Below are positions 3,392 through 64,000 of a stretch of 64,000 nucleotides of DNA, one piece after another. Each line of letters begins with the position of its first letter. Within the stretch, counting starts at the first letter, position 1. A program made the position numbers and the translations under genes. The notes beneath the pieces were generated by a model. The model was not told the origin of the DNA. It searched no databases and saw only the letters and a program-made list of their open reading frames with translations. The stretch covers positions 27,867,001 through 27,931,000 of the forward strand of contig NC_068564.1 in the NCBI RefSeq assembly GCF_022201045.2, read 5' to 3'. The DNA is from Citrus sinensis. Its lineage: Eukaryota > Streptophyta > Magnoliopsida > Sapindales > Rutaceae.

Positions 3392-6288
3392 ATGGGAGAC
3401 GCCATAGAAGGTTTGTTAACGAACCGCCGCAAGAACTTATCTCGAAGCATATCGCATGCGCAGGACGAGTTACACAGCTTCCGATCGTATCTCAAATGGA
3501 TGTGCGTTGATCAATCGAATTGTTTTACAGCGTGTCTCTCGTGGTCCATGTTCGTTCTTTTCACCATCGTCGTGCCCGCCATATCGCATTTCGTTCTGGC
3601 GTGTGACACCTGCGACGGCACCCACAAGCGGCCTTACGACGGCGTCGTGCAGCTCTCCCTCAGCAGCGTCGCCGCTCTCTCGTTCATCTGCTTGTCTAGC
3701 TTTGTCAAGAAGTATGGCCTTCGAAGGTTCTTGTTCCTTGATAAGCTTTGTGATGAAAGCGAGATGGTCAGAAGCCGCTACATGGAACAACTCAATGTAC
3801 GTATTTATAAATTATAATTCACCTATGTTTCTTTGTAATCGTTTTTCCTTTTCTTTTTTTTTTTTAGGGTTTAAAATTTAGTTTTGATTCGATTATCTTG
3901 AGAGAATTAGAGAATGATCGTTGGTTTAGAATTATAATTTTACTCTACAAATAGTTTCATAATTTGGTCAACTCAGTTCTTCTCTTCAAGTGTCTGTGGA
4001 AACAACAGAGGATTTTTTAAGAAGCCAGGGGAATAACAGAGGAAGCTAAATTAGATTTTTTTTTTTTTTTGGGTGGCGTGGGGTGGGGGGAATGTGTATA
4101 GAGGAAGATCCTAATATTCCTAAGTTATGTCAATAATCGAGTTGGTGTTTGACTTTGATCAGCTGTAAAGAAAGCCGTTTATGAAAGAAAATAAAACTTT
4201 CGTTCGCAGAGTCTCCTAATTCTGGCTACATATAAGAGATAGTAGTAATAATCAATAATAAATGAATAGCTACACTGTACGAACGGTTCTGTAGCTGAAT
4301 CACCTGCCCAAAATTGTAATTACAAGATCTCGTAGAACTGTCCAGAATTAGTATGATTAACTTAGCTGATAGCATTTTAGGAATTCTTAGCTTTGAGTTA
4401 GACTTGAAGGATGTAAATTGAGAAATAAAGGACTAGAACAAAGTAAAGTATAGATTCTTGTTGCTGATGAATTGTTTAATGTGTTGCTGTCAAGCTGGCA
4501 ATGATATGCACTTTTAGGTTAATGGGTACTTTACTCAATATAAATTGGAAAAGTATAAGATCTATTTTTTCATTTTTATTTTTTTTGGCTGAACAAGTTT
4601 TTTATGAATGTAATTGTTAATGTGACTTCTTTTTTTTTTTTTTTTTGTAATTTATGTAGAGATCATTGAAGATCCTCAGTATTTTTGTCCTCCCATGCTT
4701 TTTAGTGGAGAGTGCATACAAGATATGGTGGTATGCATCTGGTGCTTCACAAATTCCCTTTTTGGGCAATGTTTACTTGAGTGACACCGTAGCCTGCATA
4801 ATGGAGTTGTGCTCATGGCTCTATCGGACCACTGTCATTTTCCTCGTGTGTGTTCTCTTCCGTCTGGTCTGCCACCTACAAATCCTAAGGCTCCTTGACT
4901 TTGCTCAGGTTTTTCAAACTGACTCTGATGTAGATTCTGTATTAGCTGAGCACCTGAGGATCAGGAAGCATTTGAGGATCATTAGCCATCGGTATCGTGC
5001 ATTCATATTATGGTTCTTGATCATGGTCACTGGAAGCCAGTTTGCCTCATTGCTTATGACAACAAAGCCTAGTGCTGTTGTAAATATTTATATAGCTGGG
5101 GAACTTGCGGTAAGCATTCTTCCCAGGTTTGTAACATAACTAAATATAGAACTCAAAATTGGTCTGTCATTCGCCAATGAAACCATCCATTAAACGGAAA
5201 CATTTGTGTTATGTCAAACTTAGTTGATAATTTTCCTTAAAACTCTCTAATGATCTTGAATAATTAACAGTCTTCTTACCTTCCTAATAATGTGAGTCCA
5301 TATTATGATGGTTCCGACAACATTATAATATTCTGCATATTGATAAACATTATGATTTCATTACATTATTGGCTGTCCAATTGATCCTTATTTTGAATTT
5401 TACAGAACTAGTAATAATCATGATGTGGAATAAAGAACCTGTTGATTTACTGGTCATTGTTTATTGTATTGACTAAAGGACAGAGGACACTGACAATGAT
5501 ATCATGCTTCACATGCAAGGAGCACTAACTTATGCTTGTATTTATCTTTTTTGCAGTTGTGCTCCATGACCCTTGTCGCTGGGCTCCTCATACTATTGAG
5601 AAGTGCAACAAAGATCACACACAAGGCACAGGCTGTTACATGTCTTGCTGCTAAGTGGCATGTGTGTGCAACAGTAGACTCATTTGATGTAAATGATGGT
5701 GAGACTCCTAGGATCCCTGATGCTGCTGGCCGAGCTTTTCCAATATGCCATGGGGAATCCGACTGTGATGATGCTGGTGATGAAGAAGATGACTTGGACA
5801 ACTCAAACCTTATCCCAGCATATGCATATAGCACCATTTCGTTCCAGAAGAGACAGGCTCTGGGTAAGCCAAATTCTCTAACAAATAATTGCTAAATAAA
5901 TATTCAGGGCATAATTCTCATTTCATGGTTTAAGTTGGCTGGAATAAAGTTTTGGGTATGTTTAGAAGTTGTATTACCATTTTATTCAAATTAGGAGTAG
6001 GGAAAATGATTAAAGTACCAGGGATCTGTTGCTTATCAGAATCTTGATAATGATAAGGTGGTGACTGGGTTAATACTATTGATTCATGCATACACCTTAT
6101 GTTTATTCATGGTTTGCACAGTTTGATGATTATTTTCTTTTGTAACGGCAGTGAACTATTTTGAAAACAACAGAGCTGGGATTACAGTATTCGGGTTCAC
6201 GTTAGACCGGAGCACACTTCACACCATTTTTGGTATTCAGTTATCTCTTGTACTATGGTTGCTTGGAAAGACAGTTGGTCTGTCTTGA
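3392..6288 (+). CDS. Gustatory receptor-like DUF3537 membrane protein
   Basis: Four exons (3392-3796, 4660-5109, 5557-5863, 6152-6288) join in frame to about 432 residues, the normal DUF3537 length. The start is the first ATG, in context accATGg. Hydrophobic blocks suggest seven passes: about residues 45-65, 85-105, 138-160, 175-205, 250-275, 275-300 and 405-430. A loop before the last pass is acidic (DDAGDEEDDLDNS). Family knowledge: plant DUF3537 proteins are called gustatory receptor-like and have been proposed as distant relatives of insect chemoreceptor channels; Arabidopsis At3g20300 is the likely orthologue. Ligand and transport activity are not known from sequence. The neighbour is EHD1, a pairing also found in Arabidopsis. 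The coding model is secure; function is open. Confidence 0.9.
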
Positions 6289-18381: not shown

Positions 18382-20356
18382 TCATAAAAACGTAGCTAGG
18401 GAAGTTCTAACCACATGATCTGCAATAATCCAATTCGTCTTCTCTGTTGGATGGAAGGAATCCCAAAATACATATTTGTTTGCATCTGAACATGTAAATG
18501 GGTTAATTTTAGAACACATGTAACCCATCTCGAAGAATCCGGTTCCACAACATGCTTTTGCTATGTCTTCGAATCCTGTGATTAGAAATTGCAATAAGAT
18601 ACTTTGAGTACACATGCAAATAGGTGCATGCTCATGCTCGTTCACACAATGCACAATTTTGAAGCTAAAAATACTTAACCTTGTTAGTCCGTATGATATA
18701 CTGCATTTTGCTAATTATATTTGCATGGTTTCATTCTCCTTTAAGTTATATCTCAACAAATAATGAAAAGTATTGAGGGACAGCTCTAAAGTTACATATT
18801 GGTGCTAATTTGAAGGAAAATAAAATGAAATCTAGGCCAAGCCAGAAACTAGATAGTACTACTTTATTCATATCAAATCATGAAAAGTAGATCCCTGGGT
18901 TTCTCTCTCTTATTTTTGGGTACTTTGGGGACCCAGTGGATCTGATACTTATGGAGGGTAGTCTCTCGTTCATCACTACTCTTTCCCTGTTGCAAGCGAG
19001 ATTCAATCGTTCATAACTGCCCTACTAGCTTCATGGAGTTTGTGCTATTTAACTACATATGAAAATACTGCAGAAAACTTACCAAATTTATTTGGGTTCT
19101 GAATGATATCTAAAAGAATATCATAGGGATTTGAAAACACTAGCCGGATGCCAGCAAGCTCCTTGTTCACCTTCATGATCATACCCTGCAACTTTTCATT
19201 AAATTTCTTAGCTACATCATTGTACTCCTGCACACAGTCACCTCCCGAGAAAATATTTGTCGCTCTTTCCAGTGGTAAACACCCCATTGGAGGAAGCCCA
19301 CTTAGGCATATATTTCGAGCTCCTAGCCGGTGAAGCTCTGTGATAAAATCTTTTGCAATTCCTGCAAGAAAATTCTGGTACTCCTCAATGTTGTACTCTG
19401 ATGGTCTACGTGGAAGTACATAGTAATTTTCCAGGAAATCATTAGTCCCTATGCTCACTAGGTACAGTGCTTCCCCAATGACCTTATTAGCTTTCTCATT
19501 GCCGAGAAACCCTCTGAGCTTCTCCTGGTATTCTTTATAGTACTCCATTTCCTTCCAAAGAGGGATTACAGACTGCAATCCAGGAGGCACAAATAAAATC
19601 ATCTTGTGATTAGAACATAGATAAGTTACTAATTCATTGGCTAATATATTCCCAAAAAGTCAAAATCTAAGCGATAGATGTTTTGTGAGATCTTCTAAAA
19701 TGTTAATGGGTAAGAGAATCAGAGTCAGTCGAATTTATTTACTGAAATACCCTAATCCTTTTTGGATAGACCCGCGTAGACTTAGAAATTTTGACAACTT
19801 AAAACTATCTGATAAAAATACTATTGATTTGATATATATATATATATATATATTATGAAAAGGCATGTCAGCATCAACCTGGAAAATGAGTAAACCTTAT
19901 TGAAAACTGATTGAAAACAAACTTTCTACGGACTGGGTGAGTTTTGTCTTTATCTAGTTTTACAGAGTCTGAAGCCATAACGGGACTTACCAGCACATCC
20001 GAAGTGGCGTTATCATAACCAGTTCCAGCTGAAGCAAAACAAACTCCCGTAGAAAAATCTGATATGTTATATGTGGGATCCAAATATGCAGGTATTGTTG
20101 GCTTGATGCGAAAAGCTTCAGAAATGAAGTCAGTCGGAATCCGACCATTGGAAAACCGACCAGTGGGCTTGCTATCGATAAAATCACGGCCATATGGCTG
20201 AAAGTTGCTCTTTAGGACTGTAGAGATCTCATTGTTATTCCCTGAATCAACAGAAGAGTCCCCAAACACAATGATTGCCGGAACTTTTGCATTTATTTTA
20301 AGGATTTGCACAAGGAGATGAGCTAAAAGAAACCAAAGCATGGCCTCGTAACCCAT
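18382..20356 (-). CDS. GDSL esterase/lipase
   Basis: Three exons (19991-20356, 19083-19572, 18382-18575 on the minus strand) join to 349 residues, the family norm. A hydrophobic N-terminus (AMLWFLLAHLLVQI) is a secretion signal. All four SGNH blocks are present: FGDSSVDSGNNN with the catalytic Ser (about residue 34), FSNGRIPTDF, IGTNDF, and DSFHPTEK with the catalytic Asp and His near the end. LPPMGCLPLE is also typical. Family knowledge: these extracellular enzymes hydrolyse esters in wax, cutin or cell walls; the substrate cannot be read from sequence. The likely counterpart is Arabidopsis At4g26790. Intron 1 carries a (ta)n microsatellite near 19831-19852. Confidence 0.92.
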
Positions 20357-21989
20357 ATCTAATGCTTTTGTCTATCTATCTGGTTTATATAATTACGAGT
20401 CTGGAGTGTTTGTTGGTCAAGTTGGTATGAATGACATTTTGTGCAGTGGTGAAGTAGGGAAGCAACAATAACTTTAAGGTGGATGAAGTTTGTTGAGACT
20501 TTTACTCGGCTTTTGCTTTATACAGGGGAGTTTCCAGGTCCTGTATTGAATTTTTTGATTTATTGGTTGCAGAGTCAAGACAGATTACGTGCTATTTCTG
20601 ATTAATGAAAACGATGGAATAAGAATCTTACTTGAAATAGAAGTGTTTCTCCATTTGTACTGTTGTAATAAAAAAATGTGAGAAAGACATGAGTAGCTTG
20701 GTAGCTTCTTTTTCCTAGCTGTTGTATTAATCGTTTGACAAAATTTCTTCTGAGTGAATGTCTTCAACCTTGTTAACTTGTCACAACAGCTAATGCCATT
20801 TTGACATCTTGCATGTTAATTTCAAGTTACATTTAATAGTAAAGTCGTGTGACACCAATTTACGGGTCAAGATCAACAACCCTAATTTTTCTTATACAAA
20901 TTGTTTGATGCAGTTTATGGACTGTGTTTGCGTTTTTGGTGAGCGTTATTTACTTATTTTCTGGGTTACAGCTTGAAGTTTTCAGGAGCATGGTTTTGTA
21001 ATTTGTATAGGCTTGACGTGAGGAAGAATTCATGCAGTTACAACAACAGGCTGGAACTAGAACTTCTCTTTCTTCTTTTTGTTGTCGTTTAGGACTGGCT
21101 TTACGCGCCTAAAGTTGGCTTGGATCGTGAAATTGATTCACGGCAGAAATGTGATCCACCGGTTCATGTGGTTTACGGCTGCGACTTTGGAGGATGATTT
21201 TTTTTTTTTTTTCGCATCAAATAGTGGCTTGTGCATTCGACTACGCCAAAGTGACAATAATTAAATAATTTTCCTATTGTTAGAATTTTAAAAATAGAAT
21301 TAAGAGTTATTTGATTATATCCTAAGTTTTTAAATGTTCTGAATTGCCATTTTTTAGAGCAAGTATTAATACACCGTGTATTTTTTTAAATAGGATTCGG
21401 ATCCACTAAATCCATGCATGGATTTTTAGAACATTCAGAATTTATTTTATCTTAATTTTAAACTCAGTCAAAATATTACTAACAAAGCAATCCAAATTTG
21501 AAGAATTAAAAAAAAAATTGTGGACTCAGCAATATTCAACCATGTACAACAATAATAAGATTATTTAAAAAAAAAAACAGAGAAAGGAAGAGAAACAACC
21601 CCCATGGCCCCATCAGTTAAAAGAAAAAAATTTTAGCCTCCCTGGTCCAGCTTTGATCACTAACAAATTTTCTCCACGTGGCATATGCAGCTCTGCTATT
21701 GGCTGTTAGCTTGATACGATTTTATGACTGTACTGCAGTCGCTGACGATGACATGACAGAACGACACAGTACCCGAAGCAGCGTTCTGATTCTTTCCGAA
21801 CTGTTGCGGTAGACGAGCAGCAGTGCTGTAAGGGCATTTGCGTCTTTTGACATGACACTAATGTTAGAATTTACAATTCCGCAAAATCTTTGTACAATTG
21901 TGTCATCTCATTGGCCCCATCATCACGGCGAAGGAACAAAAAGAAAAGAGAAGGAGAAGAAAGGAAAAAAAAAAAAAGAAATCGATCTG
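20357..21989. promoter_or_regulatory. Divergent promoter region between GDSL and pyruvate carrier genes
   Basis: The two genes point away from each other, so both promoters lie here. No further gene was found. The stretch 21,880-21,989 just before the carrier start is purine-rich (aaaagaaaag, gaaggagaag) and is probably leader sequence. Confidence 0.45.
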
Positions 21990-46345: not shown

Positions 46346-46794
46346 CAATAAAGAGAGAGAGAGAGAGAGAGATAATTAGTAAATTTACACACCTGTGATA
46401 TTACTGTTGTTATTACTAGATCTGTTGTAGTAGGGATAGAGACCATGAAACACTCAAGAAGTGACTGGAGAGTAAACTGCTTTTCCTAGCTGTGTATGTT
46501 ATATGTTGTTATAAATTTGGCTTTTCTTATCAGTCTCTTGAATCATGCTTTTTATTTTGTCAAATCACTTGTGAGTTGTAATGGAAGTCCCTGTGGGCTT
46601 TGGGCTACAGCACCTGCCACTGGCAAATGTGAGTTGTAATGGAAGACCCTGTGGGCTGTGGGTTGCAGTAGGTGCCACTGGTAAAATGTTCATTAACAAA
46701 ATATTGGGTGCTTAGTGGTACCGCTTTAGTACGGAGGCAAGAGTATTTTATGTTGTTGCAACAAATCAGCTTTCAACATGACTTAATGCGATGC
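46346..46794. other. MAP65 3' flank with 58-bp tandem duplication
   Basis: A (ga)n run follows the stop codon. The block tgtgagttgtaatggaag... starts at 46570 and again at 46628, a period of 58 bp with a few differences. It lies probably in or just past the 3' UTR. Confidence 0.7.
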
Positions 46795-47110
46795 CTTCTT
46801 TTTGGGAAATTTACGAAAATAGCCATAAATATTTTATTATTTTCTCAACTAACCCTCTTAATTTTTTTCTATCAACATTAGCCAAACACAAGCTTTTCTC
46901 CCCAAATTACCCTTCTTTACAGACCAAAAGCAATAATCTTTCTCCCATATCGTCAAACCAAACGCAGCTTAATCATCAACCAACGTTGACGGCAAAAGAC
47001 AACAGTAAAGGTGAAATCCGATCATAATCTATCCGAATCCAACACTAATCGGCATCACTTAGTAGTATGAGTTATTTTCTGAACTTGCTTAACTGAGTCG
47101 TGGGTGAATC

Positions 47111-47201
47111 TGGCGACAGGCTGCCTGTCGCACCAAAAATTTCTGGCGACAGGCACCTGTCGCACCAAGCTTCGGGCGACAGGCAGGCTGTCGCACCAAG
47201 C
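47111..47201. repeat. Left subterminal palindromic repeats of the Mutator element
   Basis: Three units of about 30 bp, each of the form ggcgacaggc...cctgtcgcacca, so each is itself an imperfect palindrome. The same core, ggtgcgacag, recurs in inverted orientation near the other end of the element. Confidence 0.85.
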
Positions 47202-47255
47202 CTTAGAGATTCATTAAAACTGTATTAATTTGATCCGGATCCAATTAATTTTTTT

Positions 47256-49907
47256 TTGATAATTTCAGGCTTAATAGATTCAATTGTACTTGAATTGTGT
47301 TACGATGGTTGGTGGGAGACATTAGAGGATGGCCGTATGGAGTATGTGAATGGTAAAAATCGAGCTTTTTTGGTTGGGAAAAATTGTTTGTTTGATCAGT
47401 TATTGGCAAGAGTATACGAGGTGTTACAAATAAACCCTAATGAATATAATATTACAATGAAGACAACTTTGAGGTCTAGTAACACATTATATCGTATATG
47501 TGCACTGCCCATGGATATATTTGATGATGAAATGGTGAGGGTTGTGTTGCATATGGCATCCGACGTAGCCAATTTTGGATGCATTCCTATATTCGTGACC
47601 ACATCACCTCGAGTTTCGAGCGAAGGTATTGAGCCACATGTCGATACAGAAACTTCGTTTAGAGCAAATATGTTTGGCCCCGATAATGATAAAGAGGTGT
47701 TGCCAAGGACAATATTGCTGCAGCAATATTACTCTCCAATCCACGACAATTATGACAACATTGATGATAACGGCGTTACGTTAGAGGATGTTGGAGCAAC
47801 GGTATTTCCAATAACGACGTCGTTGGAGCAACGGTATTCTCCGTATCACAACAATGATTTTCGGGACAATGATGATTTTCATCATGAGACAAAGGGGGAT
47901 AATGTTTGTGCAGAATCTTCTAATAATACGAGGGGCACTCATTTCAATAATGATGGTGATAATGGAGGAGCCGGTCCTTCGAATGTTCCGTCGTTTCAGC
48001 ACGACGATGAGTGTGAAGACAATACTCCTGTGAATAACAGAGGCAATAGACCTAGTCCTTCTATGGTTCGATCGAGAAGGTGAATTGACCCCCTTACAAG
48101 TCTTGCTCCAACTTTGCCTTCGAACATGGTTGCTCCAAGCTTTGTTAGTAGTTGTGATTCAGATGATATCAGTGTGGGTAAGCTATTTGCTGAGAAGAAT
48201 GAGTTTATATTACAACTACGCAAGGTTGCCTTTAGAGATAAGTTTGATTTCAAGATTGTATGGTCTACTACGACACTTTTCGAGGCTCACTGTTGTTCAG
48301 AATCATGTAAATGGCGTATTCGAGCAACTAGATGTTCGAACGAGCTAAATGTTCCTTGGGTGGTAAAGAGAATTGACAATGTACACACTTGTCATAATGA
48401 GGTATTGGTTGATGGACGTCATCAAGTAAGGAGCCGGGTTGTCGGTCATATTATCGCAGAAAAATATATTCAAAACAAGAGGATTTATACTCCGAATGAC
48501 ATAAGAGCAGATATGCAATAGGAATACGGTGTTCAGTTAACATACCAGCAGGCATATCGGGCAAGAGAAGTTGGTCTTGAAATAGTTCGAGGCAACCCTG
48601 CAGAGTCATACAACTTGCTCCCTAAATACTCTCACGTACTAACTACAGCTAATGAGGGTACAGTCACTCACCTCGAGCAGGATGGAGATGGTAATTTCTT
48701 GTACTATTTTGTAGCACTCGGATCTTCCATCAAGGGTTTTATGCAGTACATTCGGCCTGTCATTGCTGTAGATGGTACTCATCTGAAGGGACTATATCGT
48801 GGAAGCATGTTCGTGGCAACATGTCTTGATGGTAACAATCAATTGTATCCGTTAGCGATTGGGATCATGGATTCAGAAAACAATGATGCTTGGGAATGGT
48901 TTATGATGAAGTTACACGGAGTGATTGGCGATAGACCTGAGTTGGTAATTATCTCTGATCGATGCACTGCCATAAGGAGAGCCGTTCTTAAAGTATTTCA
49001 CAATGCAAGTCATGGCGTTTGTTTTTACCACGTCAAAGGTAACATTAAGTCTCAGTTTAGAATGTCCAAAGCTCTTTGGGATCAATTTGAGCCTGCCTTT
49101 ATTAATGCAGCAAAAGCATATGGCCACGAGGAATTTAAGAGACAACTTGAAGGGTTGTGGATGATCTACCCGGGTGCGGCTGATTACCTAGAAAATAATG
49201 TCGGTACGTGTAATTGGGCAAGGTCTCAGTTTGAAGGTAGGAGGTACAGCATACTTACCACCAACATCGCGGAGAGTGTTAATTCTTTCATGCGGGAACC
49301 TCGAAAATTTCCTGTTACTCATCTTGTTGATCACTTTAGAAAAACAATGCAGCAATGGTTTTATGATAGAAAAATTGTGGCTGAATCAATGACTACTCGG
49401 CTAACAACATGGGCGGATGAAATAGTCACTGAGAGGAGAACTTTAGCTGAAAGAATGATAGTTCGGCCAGTGTCTCCGCATCGATTTCAAGTGGTAGGCG
49501 GTGGGCTTAAGGAAGGTTTGGTTGACTTGCAAAAGAGAACTTGCTCCTGCAGAGTGTTCCAGCTTGATCAGCTTGTGTGTGCTCATGCAATTGCGGCGTG
49601 TTTAACACACCGGGTGGATTTTATTAACCTTTGCTCGGACTTTTACACTACAGAATCGTTGGCGATGGCTTATGCACAACCAGTAGAGCCAGTCGGTGAT
49701 GTGGCTGATTGGGAAGTTCCAGATGAAGTTCAGGAGATGCAAGTATACCCACCAGTTGAGGCACCACCACCTGGCCGTCATAAAGAGCTCAGAATACCCT
49801 CGGCTGGCGAGGACGTTGACCGGCGGACTGTAAGATGCGGTCGGTGTCATGAACTAGGCCATAATCGTAAGAGATGTAAGAATCCCATTGCGTCGACTCG
49901 AAGTTAG
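47256..49907 (+). pseudogene. MuDR-type transposase, two in-frame stops
   Basis: One reading frame runs for about 880 codons, interrupted by TGA at 48081 and TAG at 48519. Order: an N-terminal PB1-like/MULE N-terminal region (about codons 1-115), an Asp/Asn-rich linker, the MuDR DNA-binding domain (48150-48500; EKNEFILQLRKVAFRDKFDF, then C, C, H and H ligands), the MULE transposase core starting at AVDGTHLKG (first catalytic Asp near 48771) with IISDR further on, a SWIM zinc finger (CSC...CAH, about 49542-49580) and a C-terminal CCHC knuckle (CGRCHELGHNRKRC). No ATG opens the frame before 47337; an acceptor-like site near 47269 suggests an upstream exon. With two stops this copy probably makes no full transposase. 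Confidence 0.88.
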
Positions 49908-50115
49908 TTGTATTTTGTGTGTTATGAGTTTGTTAAAACTATTATTGTTTTTGTGTTTCGTTGGTTAAAACTGTTACTGTTTTTTGTGTATTGTACACTT
50001 ATATTTCATAAAACTTTATTTAAAGTTTAAAATGTGAGGCATTAAAATTATATAAACTTAAGTGCGCGAAGTAAAAAAAAAATTCAAACTTCAACATTTA
50101 AATTACTACATAGGT
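49908..50115. other. Spacer between the two tail-to-tail transposon genes
   Basis: T- and A-rich DNA between the transposase stop and the Ulp1 stop, presumably holding both polyadenylation signals. Confidence 0.5.
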
Positions 50116-53100
50116 TTACAATATAATATCGTCATTAAATATATCAACCGCAATCTTCTTTCTAAAGTACTCGACATGACTAGCGTTAAACTCCAATCTA
50201 AGCCCGAACATTAAATACATCGTAACCATCAATACAAAAACACCGCAATCGCCAGTTCCGGGCTCTTGTTGTGGTGCGCTCTTAACTGCGATAACTTTCC
50301 ACGGGTCTTCACTCCGCAACTCCGGTCGGATATTGTAGAAGCCAACATATTCCAACCATCGAGGGAATATAACTTCAAGTGGCTTGAATTTCAACTTGTA
50401 CCTTTTGTCGTCGCGATTTGAGAGTAATGAGTCATAAATCCAGACTTTATTTTTCCGAAAGTCAACTCGTGCTAGTACCCAATGCGCGCCGTCCAAGTTA
50501 ACAGGGATGAGTAACTGCATATAACAATTGAAAAACATGTTCGTTATGTATGAAATTAAAATACAACAAAGAAATAGCAACAACTTGAATATTTTCATTA
50601 TATAGCATGTGAAATGTAATAAAACACATACCATATCGACATCCGTCATTGATTTAGACATTGTGTGCTGTCACCCACAAAGATAACTATTCAAGCGGTC
50701 GTCGAATACCATTGAATCGACTGCACAATTCCTGTTATTCCATAACTGATTCAAGAACACCTAATACATAGATAACCAAGAAATGCATAAATTAATAAAA
50801 CTTAAATTTTTATAATTTAATAAAATTTATAAGTTTTGTCGGCACGTTACTCAAAAAAATGTGTCAGTATGTGTGACACGTTGGAGTAAGGCATTTGGAT
50901 ACTGCCGTTGTTTCTCGCTAATCAAGCGGAGATACTCGTGAATATGCTGTAGAGAAACAGAAATATTACGAGTTTTTAAAAAAAAAAATTATACACAAAT
51001 CCACAACAGTATACACCACGAGGAAATTATAAATACCTCATCGCCTAGCCATCCCATCGAAGCTGTCCCCAAAATTATTTGAAAGAATGACAGCGGGTGC
51101 TGGACTCTCCGGCGGACTCTGCTATCACCAGTGAACCATCGATCAAACTCAGCAAACAGACTAGAGTCCTTCAATCCTCTCAGTGGATTTACATCCACAC
51201 TCGTACTCATGTCAATCGTATGCTCCATGATTTGGGGTCGAGGTAAAGCCCGGACGTTCTGTCCTCACCTGACCGGAGGAATCATGTAAGGACTGTTATA
51301 AACATACGACGGTATGTACGCGCGGCCGAACTTACTAACGCCCGGAGGCACCTATGTGAACACCTGCACGCTCTCCCCACTTACATCCCCGTAGAAACTA
51401 TACAATGACGTGGGCGTAGACAAATTTTCATTGCCCACGTCAGTATACACTCCAACGTCATCCGGGGACTATACATTCGCCAAAAAGAGCATATTAAATA
51501 ACTATCAAATTAAAAGTTAAACGAACATTATTATTAAATTTAAATTAGCTTACCGCATACGAGCGTGCAGTGGGAGAATCCTTATTTGGACGTTTAGAAA
51601 ATGTGTCGATGAAGCCAACAACGGTTTCTTTAAAATCTTTTAATTCTGACTTTATTTCATACACGTTACGATCAATTTTATCCAGCCGTCGTTGTACGTA
51701 ATCATTAAACTGCTTTGTCCTCGACTATTACAAAATAAAAAAATAAAACTTTAGAATAACAATAAAAAAAAATAATTTATAAAAAAAAATATCGTATATT
51801 ATTTCTAACCTCAGAATCCCGTGCGTCATCAGAGTTGTCTGTTTGATGCTGGTGGTCATCAACAACCACCTCATCCTCAAAGGTGTCATGCCCCACCTCA
51901 TCCTCAAAAATGTCATGACGCTGCTCTGGTATTGGGTTTGGTATGTCGTCATGATCGTCATGCTCGTCTGATTGCCTTGTAACCGACGGCATCGCGTTGA
52001 TTGAGGGTTGGTGCTGTATAAAGTATCATTTAAAATTAGTAAATGAAAAGTCAAAAATTTCGATTAACAAATTTTTAGTGCTTAGAGTATACCGACCTTA
52101 TGAACCCAGTCTGGAATGCTTGGCAAGTAATCATTCACAGAGAGCCAATAATTTCTGCTACTCTCCTTTGAATTTGGCTCAAGAGTTTGTAAAACGTCCC
52201 CCTTCCATAAATTCAATTTAAAATTTTAAGTAAGTATACATAACTTAAATTTAGTAAAGTTAAAAAAAAAAGTAATACATATTACTTACAAGACGAGACT
52301 CGTCGTTGAAGAACGAATAAACCTCCGCAAAGTTGATTCTCGAAGACGCCATGGGCTTCCATTGCAGAATGCGGGGAATCTTATTCTTCGTTTTGACGAC
52401 CCATGTTGATGGCAACCCTCCGATTGCTTCGTAAATCCAAGCCTACAACAACCAAAGTGAAAAATCAAATAAAACAACTATCAAATATTTAATACTATAA
52501 AACTTATTAATAAACAAAAAAAATAGCACCTGAACCCCACACGTAAAGCCGTAAAGATTGTATTTTTCAATATTATGATCTGGATTTTTCAACCGAGTCT
52601 TCTTAAATTTCTCGTCTTTCTCGAACAGTGCATTGTCAAGACTCTCGTAAATCATTTCCCACGACAATAGACCCCATGGACGCTTTCGGAAGTACTGTAT
52701 ATCATCAACTTGGTCAAGCCAATCGAAATTAATTTGACAGTGATTTTTTCTTGCATTTAGTACTCTGTCCGCAAAATAAAACAGCGCAATCTTTAGTGCG
52801 TCCATATCGTCAATTTCCTCGAATTTCAACTCCTTAAATACTACATCGAATTGCTTCACATTAATCTTACGATGCACACCACCAAAATACGTATTCCGTA
52901 GCCTCTGCTCTATTTCATCATTTTTTTTATTGGTATCAACACCAAATGAAAGTCCAGTAACCAAGCACCATTCGACAATTGACAAGCGAATCAAATGCTT
53001 ACCAATTTGAAACCATAACTGATCCTCACGGCTATCTTCTTCATGGGCCACTTGCCGCAGTAGAAGATTGTGCAAAATTACCCCACTAAATGGAAAACTT

Positions 53101-53288
53101 CGACATTCCAAGAAATGCCCAAATATATCCTTTTTGAACATACGCAACTGCAGGTTTGTTAATTTTTCCTCAATGGCTTTAACGACCGAAGATAACATAC
53201 ACATGCTCAAAACTCGACCAGGAAAGTGATCATCATAACGAAAATACATCTTGCCTACTTCAATATCCGGTGATTCTGATTTCGCCAT
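50116..53288 (-). CDS. Transposon-borne DUF1985 plus Ulp1 (C48) protease
   Basis: Multi-exon minus-strand gene. Exon 1 (52530-53288, 253 codons from MAKSESPDIEVGKMYFRYDD) and exon 2 (AWIYEAIGGLPSTWVVKTKN) form a DUF1985 domain. A central, variable part follows in several exons, including an acidic Asp/His-rich one (51777-51992) and RRLDKIDRNVYEIKSELKDF. The C-terminus (50116-50514) is a Ulp1 fold with the catalytic set visible: His in DGAHWVLARVD, Asp in WIYDS, Gln and Cys in QEPGTGDCGVF. Family knowledge: Ulp1 enzymes cleave SUMO or related modifiers; the transposon copies have no proven role. No stop breaks the exons I could place, but the middle exon joins are uncertain. Confidence 0.8.
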
Positions 53289-53369
53289 GTATCTGTAATA
53301 TTTATAAAATTATTACATTACATTTACAAAAAAAAAAAAATTAACTCGTTACAAAAAAAAAAATCTAAG

Positions 53370-53448
53370 TTTTGGTGCGACAGCGCCTGCTATCGCACCA
53401 GATTTGGTGCGACAGCGCCTGCTATCGCACCAGATTTGGTGCGACAGC
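53370..53448. repeat. Right subterminal palindromic repeats of the Mutator element
   Basis: Two and a half units of about 32 bp: ttggtgcgacagcgcctgc followed by tatcgcaccaga, then a partial unit ending gcgtgcc. It mirrors the array near the left end. Confidence 0.85.
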
Positions 53449-53520
53449 GTGCCGCGAATGGGCGCGCGCTGCTGCCCAGCGATGGGCGCGCGCGCGCGCC
53501 CTGCCCCCCTCCCTCCCCAC
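53449..53520. repeat. GC-rich CpG cluster with (GC)n run
   Basis: A strongly GC-rich patch inside the element with alternating gcgcgcgcgcgcgcc near 53485-53499, unlike the AT-rich DNA around it. Confidence 0.75.
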
Positions 53521-53940
53521 CCGCAAAATTAAGCACAATCACTCCAAAATCGAAAACAATACTCCCAAACACCACCAACCACCACAAACATCATCACCAC
53601 CACTATTAATCTCAAGCTATAACTATTATTATTCTAAAATCTCATTTTAAATTAATGAAAATAAGAAAAATGACTAACCTAGGTTTTGTTGAAGGTTGTA
53701 GATCGGATGCCGGTGAGAGATGGAGCTGCTGCCGACGAGGGATGATGTCGCCGCCGATGATGGGAGTTGGATCGGTTTGGGAGAGATGAGTGAAAGGGAG
53801 TGTTGGGGAAGAGATGAGGGAGGGGTATTTTGGTCTCAAATGTTGTTTTATGGCTAATGTTGATAGAAATATTTTTGGGGGGTTAAGATGAAAAAAAGGG
53901 AAATTTTTTTGGTTATTACTGTAAATTTCCCCTTCTTTTT

Positions 53941-54300: not shown

Positions 54301-57300
54301 ATGGCGAGCGAAACCGAGCCAGCGAAGTTGCTGTTACCGTACCTACAACGAGCCGATGAATTACAAAAGCACGAGCCTCTCGTCGCTTACTATTGTGAGT
54401 TGTATCACAGTTTTTAAAACCCTAGGTTTTCGTTACAATTGGATTGGTCACTGGATATTGTGTTTTATTTTTACAACCGACGCCGTTTTATGAGCTTTTT
54501 CGCTTTGTTTATTAATCATTTAGGTCGATTATATGCGATGGAGAGAGGATTGAGGATTCCACAGGGCGAGCGGACCAAAACCACTAATTCTCTCCTTGTC
54601 TCTCTCATGAACCAGCTCGAGAAGGTCAATTTTTCGTATTTCTGATTAATTTCATATGCTGTTTGTGTAATCAAATTTATTTATTTTCTTATTCGAAGTT
54701 TATTTGTGATAAGATGGAGTTGATCATCTAGTTTTTGAATTTTGAGAGAAGTGAGTATGGATCATTGATGTGTTTAGTCAACCAGGTATGTTTGTTTTTT
54801 GAGAAAACGAGGGAGAGAAAACGGGTGTGGAAATTTTTATTCATTAAATGTAATGAAAAGTCACTTCTGATTGTGTGAAGCCGATGCAATGTTGGGTTGA
54901 GTTGTAGTAATGCTGCACTAGTACTGAGGCTCTGGATCATTATTGAGTTACCCGGTGCCGAATCTGTATGTGCAAAAACAATTGTTGGGATCCGCTTTGC
55001 AGCTTAAGCTATTTTTGAGTGTTTCTGCTGCCTGTAATGCCCTCACATTGTTTAGAAGATTTTAGTTTACAGTGACGATTTTTTTTTGGATAGATATGAA
55101 CTGTTTGCTTGGTTGTTATCTAATGTTTTTAAGAAATCGAATGGTTTATGTAGTTTTGAGCTGTGGAGCTTCCTTTTGGTTATTTCATTTCATTGACTTT
55201 TCTGAAAATGCTCACCTTGTGACTGTTATTCAGTTACATGTAAATTCGAGGCTGTAAACTTATAATATATTTATTCTCTTCCATATTTATGGTTCCTTTC
55301 GTCACTATGTATTTTTCCTAATTGGTGAGAATGATACCGGTCCTTTGCAGGATAAGAAGTCATTGAAGTTGGGGCCTGAAGACAGTTTGCATCTGGAGGG
55401 ATTTGCTTTGAATGTTTTTGCCAAGGCAGATAAGCAAGATCGTGCTGGACGAGCAGACTTGTATGACAAACTTCAATCTTTTTTTATATGGCTTTTTACT
55501 TTTTGACATTTGGTCCTTATGATGCCTCAATACTACCTGTAGCATTAACCTTGTTTGCATAAGCATCTGGATGTCTATATCTCTTATTTTGAGGCATTTG
55601 TGGAACCAAGTAACTCATATCCTGAAGTTCATTCTTTGCTTGTTTGTATGCACTTCATGCTTAGCTGGACCTACAAACTCAGGGATTAGTGGGAATTTGT
55701 TCGTGCTTTGTTGGTAACCAGAAGGATGTGTGTAATCTAGTGTGCATGTAAATGCAAGGTTAAAAATGGTTTAATTTGGAAGAGATTCAAGAGAACATGT
55801 CAAAATCAGAATGACAAATGATGTTAATATGAGTCATATGACTCAGGGCAGGTACTGGTCCTGTAATTCACTGGTGTTAAAGGCTATCTTTGGGCTCCAC
55901 CTATCATCGAGTGTCATTGGCAAACTCTAGTGTTGTATGTTGAGTGTCTTATTCATGTTATTTCTTGTGCTAGCTCTACTTTTTCTATATTGGTATTTCA
56001 TGAGAAGTTTGTTTATTTCTGTACTTGATTCAGGAATTAATGCATGATTGTTACAGGAATACTGCTAAAACATTTTATGCTGCGAGTATTTTCTTTGAGA
56101 TCCTAAACCAGTTTGGTGCACTTCAGCCCGATGTGAGTTTTATGGTCTTACTATTATCCTATCAAAGCTTCATCTTCTCAAATTTTTAGGTTTATGTTAC
56201 CTGAATTTAAATGATTTTTGCAACTTTACTTGACATTTACTCTGATATAATTGGCTCATTTATGCTTTTATGGAAATCTTTTTCAGCTTGAGGAGAAACA
56301 GAAATATGCAGCTTGGAAAGCTGCAGATATAAGGAAAGCCATGAAGGAAGGAAGGAAACCTGTCCCAGGCCCTCCTGGTGGGGGTGAAGATCTATCAATT
56401 CCACCAAGTACGCCTGGTGTTTCATATGTATGTTTCTGAACTGAACATATATATATTCTTGAGTTTGTTGAGTAAAACAATGCATATGCACATTATGCTT
56501 GCACCTTCTTTTTTGCCTTTTGGCTCCTTCCTAATGACAAAAACTGATTATGGTAAAGGAGGAGAACTCTGGATGAATAGGATGTAGTCGCACATATAAT
56601 AATTTTGGCTTCTTTGTACGTGAACATGATGATTAGGAAAAACATGCTGCTGTTCTCGGTGGGTCTTTAACTCTATCTACTTTTGCAGGACATTGGAACG
56701 AGTGAAACACCAATTAAGGGTCCTGGATCTGATTCTGATCCATCATCTCAGTTCCCTGATAGACTTGATCATTATTCTGCAAATGTTTCACCGCCATCTC
56801 AGTTCCCTGATAGACTTGATCATTATTCTGCAAATGTTTCACCGCCACCTCAGTTCCATGACAAAGTTTCCAACCAGCATTCATCCGATATTCCTCCACC
56901 ACCTCCTACCCATGATTTTCATCCAACTTCATTGAACAGATCAGATAGTTCTTCATACTCTCACCCTAGTTCAGGTTACCCTACTCATGATTTTCATCCA
57001 CCTCCCCCAGCTAACAGATCAGAGAATTCTACGTATTCTCAGCCATACCACCATCAATACTCTCAAGAACCCCAGCAACATTTGCCTCACAATTACCCAT
57101 CTCAAGAAAATCCCACATACAATTACCCCAACTTCCAGTCTTATCCAAGTTTTACTGAGAGCAGTATCCCATCCATCCCGTCTCATTATCCTTCTTACTA
57201 TCAAGGCTCTGACATTCCCTACTCTCCCCAATCGGCTGTTCCTGCTCCCACTGCAAGTTATCAGTTAACTTCTGAGTACTCTTCAAGCAGTAGAAATGGG

Positions 57301-57495
57301 ACTATCTCAGAACCTCCCCCGGCACAAAAATATCAATATGACAGCAATTATCAACCCCTGCCTGAGAAAATCTCTGAGGCACACAAGGCTGCGAGATTTG
57401 CAGTTGGAGCCTTGGCATTTGATGATGTATCAGTTGCTGTGGACTACTTAAAGAAATCACTTGAACTGCTGACAAATCCATCTGCCGGTCAATGA
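54301..57495 (+). CDS. LIP5: LIP5/VTA1-like regulator of the Vps4 ATPase
   Basis: Six or seven exons give about 435 residues. ATG 54301 starts MASETEPAKLLLPYLQRADE. N-terminal tandem MIT-like helices: LQKHEPLVAYYCRLYAMERG, LHLEGFALNVFAKADKQDRA, TAKTFYAASIFFEILNQFG, KYAAWKAADIRKAMKEGRKP. A long Pro/Ser/Tyr-rich linker follows with a 17-residue tandem duplication, and the C-terminal VSL-type Vta1 helix pair closes it (ISEAHKAARFAVGALAFDDV, AVDYLKKSLELL). Family knowledge: it binds Vps4/SKD1 and stimulates ESCRT-III disassembly in multivesicular body sorting; plant LIP5 also matters in stress and immunity. Arabidopsis counterpart At4g26750. Confidence 0.93.
56746..56847 (+). repeat. 51-bp tandem duplication in LIP5 coding exon
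   Basis: Two nearly identical 51-bp units encode SQFPDRLDHYSANVSPP twice. A third, decayed unit follows (PQFHDKVSNQHSSDIPP). It keeps the reading frame. Confidence 0.9.
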
Positions 57496-61817: not shown

Positions 61818-62568
61818 TATTTTGTATATCAAACTTAGAACTTTGAATGTAACATATAATAATTATGAACCGTCACAAAAAGTCATGTAATGTACGTAGG
61901 TAACGCCAAAGTTATCAAGAAAAATAATTTAATGATCACCTGAGACAGCCAGTGCAAGGAGAATGCGGAGTGGAAAAAGTCGATTGATCTTGTCGGAAAA
62001 AGGCGCCTGTAAAATGAACCGGGGACTCCGGCGGCGAAATAAGACCGGTGAGTGTCGGAAGCCAGGCATTCTTCCATGCTGCTGCCTATGGGAGGCAGGA
62101 GTTGAAAGAGAGTGTTGAAGTCATTGCTGGGGAGGTCGGAGAAGAAAGCTGAGAACTCCGGTGGCTCGTACCCCGAGGCCTCGTAACGTTTGCTAATGTG
62201 TTTGATGATCACGTCCACGATGTACAGAGTGTTGTTGCCGCATGAACAGCCTAAATCTGCCAAGGCAAAGGGGATGGTTTCTGATGGTGGCTCCATTAAC
62301 TGAATATTGTCTAGGGTTTCTCTTAGTAGATGAAGCATGGATTGAGCATGTATTGCCTGCATGTCGAATATAATCAAGGACTTACGCATAATACACAAAT
62401 AACAAATTAAAAATGAGTGAAAATATAACTAGAAAGGAATTCAAAAGGAACCTGGGCTTGAGAGTTATTGGCATAGCTGGCTTCACCGTTGCCTCCTTTC
62501 ATGCTAAGTATCATCTCAAGCTTTCTGTCTGAAACAATAACATCATTTCCTTTGGGAGCCATTTTCAT
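59952..62568 (-). CDS. IAMT1: Indole-3-acetate O-methyltransferase (SABATH family)
   Basis: Four exons on the minus strand join to about 387 residues. Two in-frame ATGs open it (62568 and 62562; MKMAPKGND or MAPKGND). Motifs in order: MILSMKGGNGEASYANNSQA with substrate-binding residues, LADLGCSCGNNT for S-adenosylmethionine, FSAFFSDLPSNDFNTLFQLL, GVPGSFYRRLFP, FHSAFSLHWLSQVP with the substrate-contacting Trp, CLGRTSADPTDQGG, and a final LQFFHIVASLSFA. Similarity to Arabidopsis IAMT1 (At5g55250), as I recall it, is close throughout, so auxin methylation is a firm family call, though SABATH substrate choice depends on few residues. Product: methyl-IAA, an inactive, mobile auxin form. No break seen. 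An ATT/TTA microsatellite lies in an intron near 61789-61818. Confidence 0.93.
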
Positions 62569-63142: not shown

Positions 63143-63475
63143 TAATGATAGATATCCTAAATGTATCATTCATTAAGTTAATATGGAAATTTTTTAAATA
63201 ACCTACTTAATTATGTTATTGTGTTGATCCTTATTCTATTTTTGAAGTATTTATAATGATAGATATCCTAAATGTATCATTCATTAAGTTAATATGGAAA
63301 TTTTTTAAATAACCTACTTAATTATGTTATTGTGTTGATCCTTATTCTATTTTTGAAGTATTTATAATGATAGATATCCTAAATGTATCATTCATTAAGT
63401 TAATATGGAAATTTTTTAAATAACCTACTTAATTATGTTATTGCGTGGATCCTTATTCTATTTTTGAAGTATTTA
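63143..63475. repeat. Three-copy tandem repeat, 111-bp period
   Basis: Units start taatgatagatatccta at 63143, 63254 and 63365. Copies 1 and 2 are practically identical; copy 3 differs by a few bases (gcgtgg for gtgttg). AT-rich, no coding capacity. Confidence 0.93.
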
Positions 63476-64000
63476 TAAAAAAAATTAAAAAGTAAATGAA
63501 ATTTACCAAGAAAGAGCGTGCAAAAGTTAACATCCGTGGCCCCAACATAACCTAAAACAAGCCAACAACAATTCTTGTTATACAATTGCATTATCATGTA
63601 GCTTCCAATTAGTAGAAAACAAAATTGCAAAACGGCGTTAACATACTAATTAAAAAAAAAAACAAAAAAATTAAATTTAAAAATAAAACTTAATTAAGAT
63701 GGTTGGAGACATTATTTTTAAGCACATGCATGCAAAAAGGTTTTTGGGCTCTAAAGCTATGATGTAATTTGCCTCTTATTGCATGCTGCTAGCTAGATTT
63801 AGTGAATATATTATAAACTAATTAAGAAAGAAATTATTGACTAATTATCTGCTTAACAATACATATAAATTATAAAGATCCTAATTAATAAGCCCGAAAA
63901 GCATAAGTTGACAATCACTATTTCTTAAAGCTATTACTAGTTAATAATTTCTAAAATTTAAAAATAAAACCTTAACATTGCTAAGTACATACATGCTAAA
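63476..64000. other. AT-rich DNA at the window end
   Basis: No gene or recognisable element. Confidence 0.5.

Follow-up and report, generated by a model that had tools for sequence, protein, structure and literature searches.

The window analysed here is a stretch of 64,000 nucleotides of the Citrus sinensis genome (NCBI RefSeq assembly GCF_022201045.2, contig NC_068564.1, positions 27,867,001 to 27,931,000 of the forward strand). It contains a transposon of 7128 bp, a single element with defined tips that occupies positions 46804–53931. The element carries a transposase gene, a second gene on the opposite strand with a DUF1985 domain and an Ulp1-type (C48) protease domain, and a tandem array of palindromes in each flank (Table 1). 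An earlier note on this DNA had described a Mutator-like element (MULE) with an Ulp1-type protease. That identification is supported by the Pfam matches, the ends, the target site duplications and a match of the protease to SENP1; missing from it were the DUF1985 (VANC-type) N-terminal half of the protein and the tandem palindromic arrays.

The ends of the element are inverted repeats with 77% identity across 90 aligned positions, and the 19-mer TTTCTATCAACATTAGCCA starts 62 bp inside both tips, exactly as previously noted. These repeats are nearer to the 'non-TIR' type of MULE (TIR, terminal inverted repeat) than to long repeats of high identity. The 9-bp target repeat, described in the earlier note as perfect, is indeed so at both flanks; two random local 9-mers matched by chance in 12 of 200,000 draws. 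The host genome (299.7 Mb, 11 contigs) was searched with the 85-bp termini, a check that the note had named, and many copies share the ends. Among the matches listed, the left end has at least 40 at 92–100% identity and one more at 77%, and the right end has at least 40, with 40/40 at 94–100%. An 18-mer core inside the 19-mer has 388 exact genome matches (188 + 200; control 0). Pairing of ends gives at least 29 elements among the matches listed, 11 of them full length and 18 of 0.5–3.5 kb. Duplications could be judged in 21 of the 22 two-ended copies (the flank of L005 was too short): they were perfect in 16, had one mismatch in three and were absent in two. The ends, the duplication and the relatives together bear out the bounds first proposed for the element. 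Some pairs of copies are 99.5–99.8% identical, which suggests recent movement, and polymorphic insertions are accordingly worth seeking. When the host genome was searched for an empty site with the joined flanks, the two sides of the window locus were the sole matches.

The integrity of the genes was followed in an alignment of 20 full-length copies, made up of the window element and 19 of 20 fetched loci (L026, with one end only, was left out). The fetched loci were the best 20 of 91 other transposase matches (92 of 1031 candidates scored), and the fractions given below hold for these copies, ranked by transposase match, rather than for the whole family. The plus-strand gene encodes a MuDR-type transposase, with Pfam matches to DBD_Tnp_Mut (E-value 1.5e-8), MULE (1.7e-20), Transposase_mut (1.6e-10) and SWIM (1.5e-7); FAR1 had no Pfam match up to an E-value of 0.1 in the three pieces of the window transposase. 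These pieces are separated by in-frame stops at 48081–48083 and 48519–48521, and the window copy has no ATG at 47274, where the transposase of its relatives begins with methionine. A frame of at least 877 residues from this methionine is kept in 16 of the 20 aligned copies.

The minus-strand gene, modelled by comparison of copies, consists of nine exons, each a multiple of three in length, and all eight introns are GT..AG in the window copy. Pfam identifies DUF1985 in the first exon (E-value 3.5e-19) and the core of Peptidase_C48 in the last (4.2e-22). The spliced protein of an intact copy, L023, has DUF1985 and a near-complete C48 domain (profile positions 2–211 of 217, E-value 2.2e-29), and in intact relatives the product is about 815–835 residues long, with DUF1985 at the N-terminus and Ulp1 at the C-terminus. 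Searched against PDB as a single sequence, the DUF1985 exon matches VANC21 (E-value 1.4e-6), with one unrelated chain (E 1.3) as the sole further match up to E 10; as a 10-sequence profile it matches VANC21 alone up to E 10 (E-value 6.2e-8). Exon 9 matches SENP1 (E-value 3.6e-10), and its His, Asp, Gln and Cys, which the earlier note had picked out as retained, all line up with residues of SENP1 and are presumably catalytic. Because the DUF1985 exon matches VANC21 and exon 9 matches SENP1, the supposed protease gene is, by homology, the gene of a VANC-type protein with a C-terminal Ulp1 domain. The peptide repeats of exon 4 are of EQRHDTF type in the window family, and this exon gives no usable match between families.

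We also observed tandem peptide repeats of DEHAPSDHDD type in the exon 4 linker of L030, a divergent relative on the reverse strand; these are unlike the EQRHDTF repeats.

The window copy of the second gene had been taken as apparently open; it contains four in-frame stops (two in exon 6 and one each in exons 7 and 8). The nine-exon gene is open in 12 of the 20 aligned copies, and both genes are open in nine. The window copy is a decayed full-length element in which both genes are broken, and it should not serve as a reference for annotation, as had been recommended. Its broken protease gene does not affect its assignment to the Ulp1-bearing MULEs.

Table 1. Features of the element and its target site, in window coordinates.
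Feature	Position	Strand	Remarks
Target site duplication, left copy	46795..46803		9 bp, cttcttttt
Terminal inverted repeat, left	46804..46891	+	Degenerate (77% to right one); 19-mer at 46866-46884
Left tandem array	47112..47201		GGTGCGACAG / CTGTCGCACC units, period ~31 bp; between end and transposase start; candidate anti-silencing target
MuDR-type transposase gene	47274..49907	+	Broken; DBD_Tnp_Mut, MULE and SWIM domains
VANC/Ulp1-type gene, exon 9	50116..50514	-	Main part of C48 protease domain with His, Asp, Gln, Cys
VANC/Ulp1-type gene, exon 8	50632..50760	-	One in-frame stop in window copy
VANC/Ulp1-type gene, exon 7	50851..50946	-	In-frame stop in last codon as modelled
VANC/Ulp1-type gene, exon 6	51037..51468	-	Two in-frame stops in window copy
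VANC/Ulp1-type gene, exon 5	51554..51724	-	From copy comparison
VANC/Ulp1-type gene, exon 4	51810..52013	-	Linker with tandem peptide repeats, number varying among copies
VANC/Ulp1-type gene, exon 3	52097..52201	-	From copy comparison
VANC/Ulp1-type gene, exon 2	52290..52442	-	From copy comparison
VANC/Ulp1-type gene, exon 1	52530..53288	-	DUF1985 domain, homologous to VANC21 (PDB 9lnj, 9lnk)
Right tandem array	53371..53449		32 bp period; starts 83 bp upstream of VANC/Ulp1-type start codon; candidate anti-silencing target
Terminal inverted repeat, right	53843..53931	-	Same 19-mer as left end, at 53851-53869
Target site duplication, right copy	53932..53940		9 bp, cttcttttt; perfect match to left copy

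The units of the two arrays are 22–28 bp long and palindromic (GGTGCGACAG..CTGTCGCACC), and we refer to this type as class A. All 20 of the 20 full-length copies have sites within one mismatch of GGTGCGACAG in the left and the right flank, upstream of the two start codons, and none of them has such a site between these codons. An exact site is present in all 28 loci examined. Genome-wide there are 253 class A palindromes (control 0) and 955 exact 13-mers (control 2). The palindromes were mapped using 50 distinct ones among the matches listed, of which four outside the coverage of the end matches were dropped, and with five ends from the 85-bp searches added by hand; 42 of the 46 mapped lie within 1.5 kb of an element end, against about 0.5% expected by chance. 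Two copies, L018 (C5:825977-835877) and L019 (C8:13308986-13318886), are 99.81% identical at aligned positions and differ greatly in their half-sites, with 7 on the left and 16 on the right in one and 11 and 33 in the other. Because copies so similar differ in this number, the arrays change faster than the rest of the element; the pair suggests recent movement together with rapid array growth. A text search of the literature for the letters of the motif returned, in the part of the matches examined, titles unrelated to transposons.

The main rival to a role of the arrays as targets of the DUF1985-Ulp1 protein is that they serve the transposase as subterminal binding sites and are unrelated to that protein. 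Their position in full-length copies, 322–751 bp from the left tip and 469–1067 bp from the right tip, would suit such sites, as would their retention in short elements: among the matches listed, perfect palindromes occur in 8 of 18 short elements (26 in all) and in 7 of 11 long ones (9 in all), and at least two of the ten short elements that lack perfect palindromes have half-sites. This explanation does not lead one to expect arrays placed upstream of each gene's start, or site numbers as unequal as those of L018 and L019, and arrays of this kind are used by VANC-type proteins (PMC5735166; this and the other papers identified by PMC number are cited from passages of their text). A second alternative, that the arrays have no protein reader and are passive tandem expansions or leader RNA hairpins that feed small-RNA silencing, seems to us very improbable. 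Hairpins could form from the leader palindromes, and VANDAL elements are subject to RNA-directed DNA methylation in their non-coding parts (PMC10398659); passive expansion leaves unexplained why the arrays are confined to the two flanks in 20/20 copies and why they are present in short elements. Silencing and anti-silencing may both hold, with the arrays contested between them.

Divergent relatives were examined for the same features. There are 34 transposase matches of at most 87% identity, and the left flanks of 22 of these (including L029 and L030) were analysed. Thirteen have only B-type sites (GTGAGACAGG; 6–19 per left flank), five have C-type sites (TTGTGCGAC; 5–10 per left flank), three have A-type palindromes and one has none. 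One of the five C-type flanks also has one A-type site, and a single C-type site accompanies the A-type palindromes in one of the three A-type flanks. Genome-wide, the class B palindrome has 58 + 67 matches (control 0), and the sole class C element covered in full has the same array type on both sides. A further class, D, belongs to a more distant DUF1985 family and is a GC-rich tandem unit of 20–22 bp upstream of DUF1985 in L070, L071 and L072 (three of seven fetched loci); in the fetched stretches of L068, L069, L073 and L074 the DUF1985 exon was not found, and these four were set aside.

A tree was calculated from 21 DUF1985 exons, for which 15 loci were fetched and five (L056, L059, L061, L063 and L066) were left out as having no exon match. 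It has four clades (support 95/93 for A, and 100/99 or 100/100 for B, C and D), which agree with the array type in 21/21 rows. This agreement is a further point that passive expansion of the arrays does not explain. Between families, the tips stay alignable (75–81% over 88–146 bp) while the array units change, and it is the tips that the transposase needs for recognition; this speaks against the arrays as transposase sites. On the other hand, A, C and the right flank of B all retain the core GTGCGAC, a persistence that a conserved site of the transposase might also show. Weighing these points, we regard the transposase-site explanation as unlikely.

The DUF1985 and C48 exons have the same order in families A, B and C. 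The ratio of nonsynonymous to synonymous substitution rates (dN/dS) was calculated between families with one copy each of A, B and C. It is 0.14–0.16 for the transposase, 0.12–0.17 for DUF1985 (two of three pairs computable) and 0.10–0.17 for C48, similar to the transposase, the ratios being rough since dS between families is mostly near or above 1. Within family A the whole second gene has dN/dS of 0.23–0.29 (four pairs). These values point to purifying selection on both the DUF1985 and the C48 domains. They bear on the possibility of a passenger Ulp1 gene, now decaying, that was captured as a fragment of a host protease as in Pack-MULEs. The four stops in the window copy are what such a passenger would show, and Ulp1 domains in several groups of plant transposons have been described as transduplicated (PMC2528002, PMC13317346). 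Nine exons kept in frame in 12/20 copies, low ratios both between families and within A, and a constant exon order across three families are not, and we consider a passenger highly improbable.

We consider it likely that the window element is a KAONASHI/VANDAL-type MULE with its own sequence-specific anti-silencing system. In intact relatives, the MuDR-type transposase would move the element by cut and paste, producing the 9-bp target duplications. The DUF1985-Ulp1 protein would bind the tandem palindromes that lie in the two flanks a short way upstream of each gene, where it would remove or block host silencing, so that both genes could be expressed; short non-autonomous copies with the same arrays could then be mobilised in trans. 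Binding of arrays and the loss of methylation that would follow are drawn by analogy from VANC21 and VANC6 (PMC5735166, PMC10398659). What the sequences themselves establish is the anatomy, the homology, the restriction of the arrays to the flanks, their differences from family to family and purifying selection. We infer that the tandem motifs are the targets of the DUF1985-Ulp1 protein in this family, and likewise expression, help in trans and a role for the protease. As a guess, the substrates of the Ulp1 protease could be host silencing factors that carry SUMO at the arrays, perhaps with removal of this SUMO.

Sasaki et al. (EMBO J, 2022) reportedly found that specificity in eudicot VANC systems is determined by the sequence of the motif, its density and its helical periodicity. 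In those systems DUF1985, DUF287 and Ulp1 are gained and lost, and the combination here is DUF1985 with Ulp1. A review names the combination of DUF1985 (VANC-type) and Ulp1 as KIU and, summarising Sasaki et al. 2022, states that Vandals with KIU recognise motifs in other Vandals that carry it (PMC13317346). Arabidopsis, melon, rice and grapevine are all known to have Ulp1-bearing MULEs (PMC2528002). KAONASHI (KI-MULE / KIU) of Arabidopsis and the Ulp1-bearing MULEs of melon, rice and grapevine resemble the window family in that the Ulp1 (C48) domain is encoded in the orientation opposite to the transposase, and also in degenerate or missing terminal repeats and many copies (PMC2528002, PMC13317346); they differ in their hosts, and here there are candidate target arrays in several co-resident families. 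In Arabidopsis, short tandem motifs of non-coding regions are bound by VANC21, and VANC6 acts on motifs of this kind (PMC5735166). The VANDAL21 and VANDAL6 systems to which they belong share with the present one a DUF1985 protein, variable regions often with tandem peptide motifs, and tandem non-coding DNA motifs, as described in passages of the same paper. Those motifs differ between related families; here the array units vary between families, with two variants mixed in class B. The VANC proteins compared there have DUF1985 and DUF287, and here the pair is DUF1985 and Ulp1. Both Ulp1-bearing MULEs (Arabidopsis, melon, rice, grapevine) and VANC systems (Arabidopsis and, according to the review PMC13317346, eudicots) were already known, and the window family joins them. 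The features least to be expected are the length of the palindromic units and the coexistence of variants in one genome.

Within Citrus, CitMule of Citrus clementina is also a non-TIR-type MULE of about 7 kb with 9-bp duplications (PMC4334395). It is related to Jittery and has a FAR1 DNA-binding domain (PMC4334395), whereas the present element has DBD_Tnp_Mut and an Ulp1 gene on the opposite strand; the word Ulp1 is absent from the text of the CitMule paper (PMC4334395). On its domain content (DBD_Tnp_Mut, and no FAR1 match up to E 0.1 in the three transposase pieces), the element is not assigned to the CitMule or Jittery type.

Several observations weigh against an anti-silencing system of this kind, in addition to the high dS between families. 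The published VANC21 and VANC6 motifs are 8–9 bp long and apparently non-palindromic (YAGTATTAY; AGTTGTCC/AC), in contrast to the 22–28 bp palindromes here (PMC5735166). Motif, DUF1985 and transposase travel together, so that co-divergence cannot tell which protein reads the motif. Although array type tracks the DUF1985 clade, the classes vary a common core: GTGCGAC is present in both A and C, which differ around it. L029, on the reverse strand and the sole class B element covered in full, has 16 sites of GTGAGACAG in its left flank, where alone this sequence occurs, and in its right flank a long GC-rich array with 15 GTGCGAC sites, two of them exact A-type. Class B therefore mixes two variants, and motif and family are not cleanly separated. 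L047 has one A-type site, L048 has one A-type and one C-type site, and L015 has one C-type site beside nine A-type. No palindrome was found in the left flank of L050, and the class A copy L024 lacks an exact site on the left. Site distances, analysed for periods of 8–14 bp, fit best with 10.5 bp in A and C and with 13.5 bp in B, and class D has units of 20–22 bp; helical spacing thus does not seem to be general here. An AlphaFold2 model of the DUF1985 exon, from 10 alignment rows, was unusable, with a mean predicted local distance difference test (pLDDT) score of 39.

A more far-reaching proposal, which we put forward tentatively and think rather unlikely, is that anti-silencing systems with a common origin exist in parallel within one host genome. 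In each of several such systems a DUF1985-Ulp1 protein would have its own variant of a palindromic array, a form of site suited to reading by a protein dimer. The change from A to B drops the CpG in the core of the motif, so that recognition may be coupled to methylation, and Ulp1 would be a live SUMO protease sent by sequence to silenced chromatin. If the anti-silencing reading of the element is right, the genome offers a natural series of families that share one ancestry and differ in their arrays, with proteins to match, in which one could test how the DNA specificity of VANC-type proteins changes and what the conserved Ulp1 domain contributes; that contribution is still called unknown in a passage of a 2026 review (PMC13317346).

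No RNA families (at the gathering threshold) and no tRNAs were found in the window as a whole. Matches to ordinary plant gene families lie at 4660-5136 (DUF3537), 19048-20371 (GDSL lipase) and 61886-62428 (S-adenosylmethionine-dependent carboxyl methyltransferase), and the element therefore sits in a gene-bearing region. About 110 bp to the left of the insertion, at 46570-46685, there are two tandem copies of a 58-bp unit, and at 63143-63478 there are three 111-bp tandem copies with 99% matches. A reading frame at 56671-57492 has a Vta1 C-terminal domain, and includes a near-perfect tandem repeat of 51 bp (17 codons) at 56744-56861.

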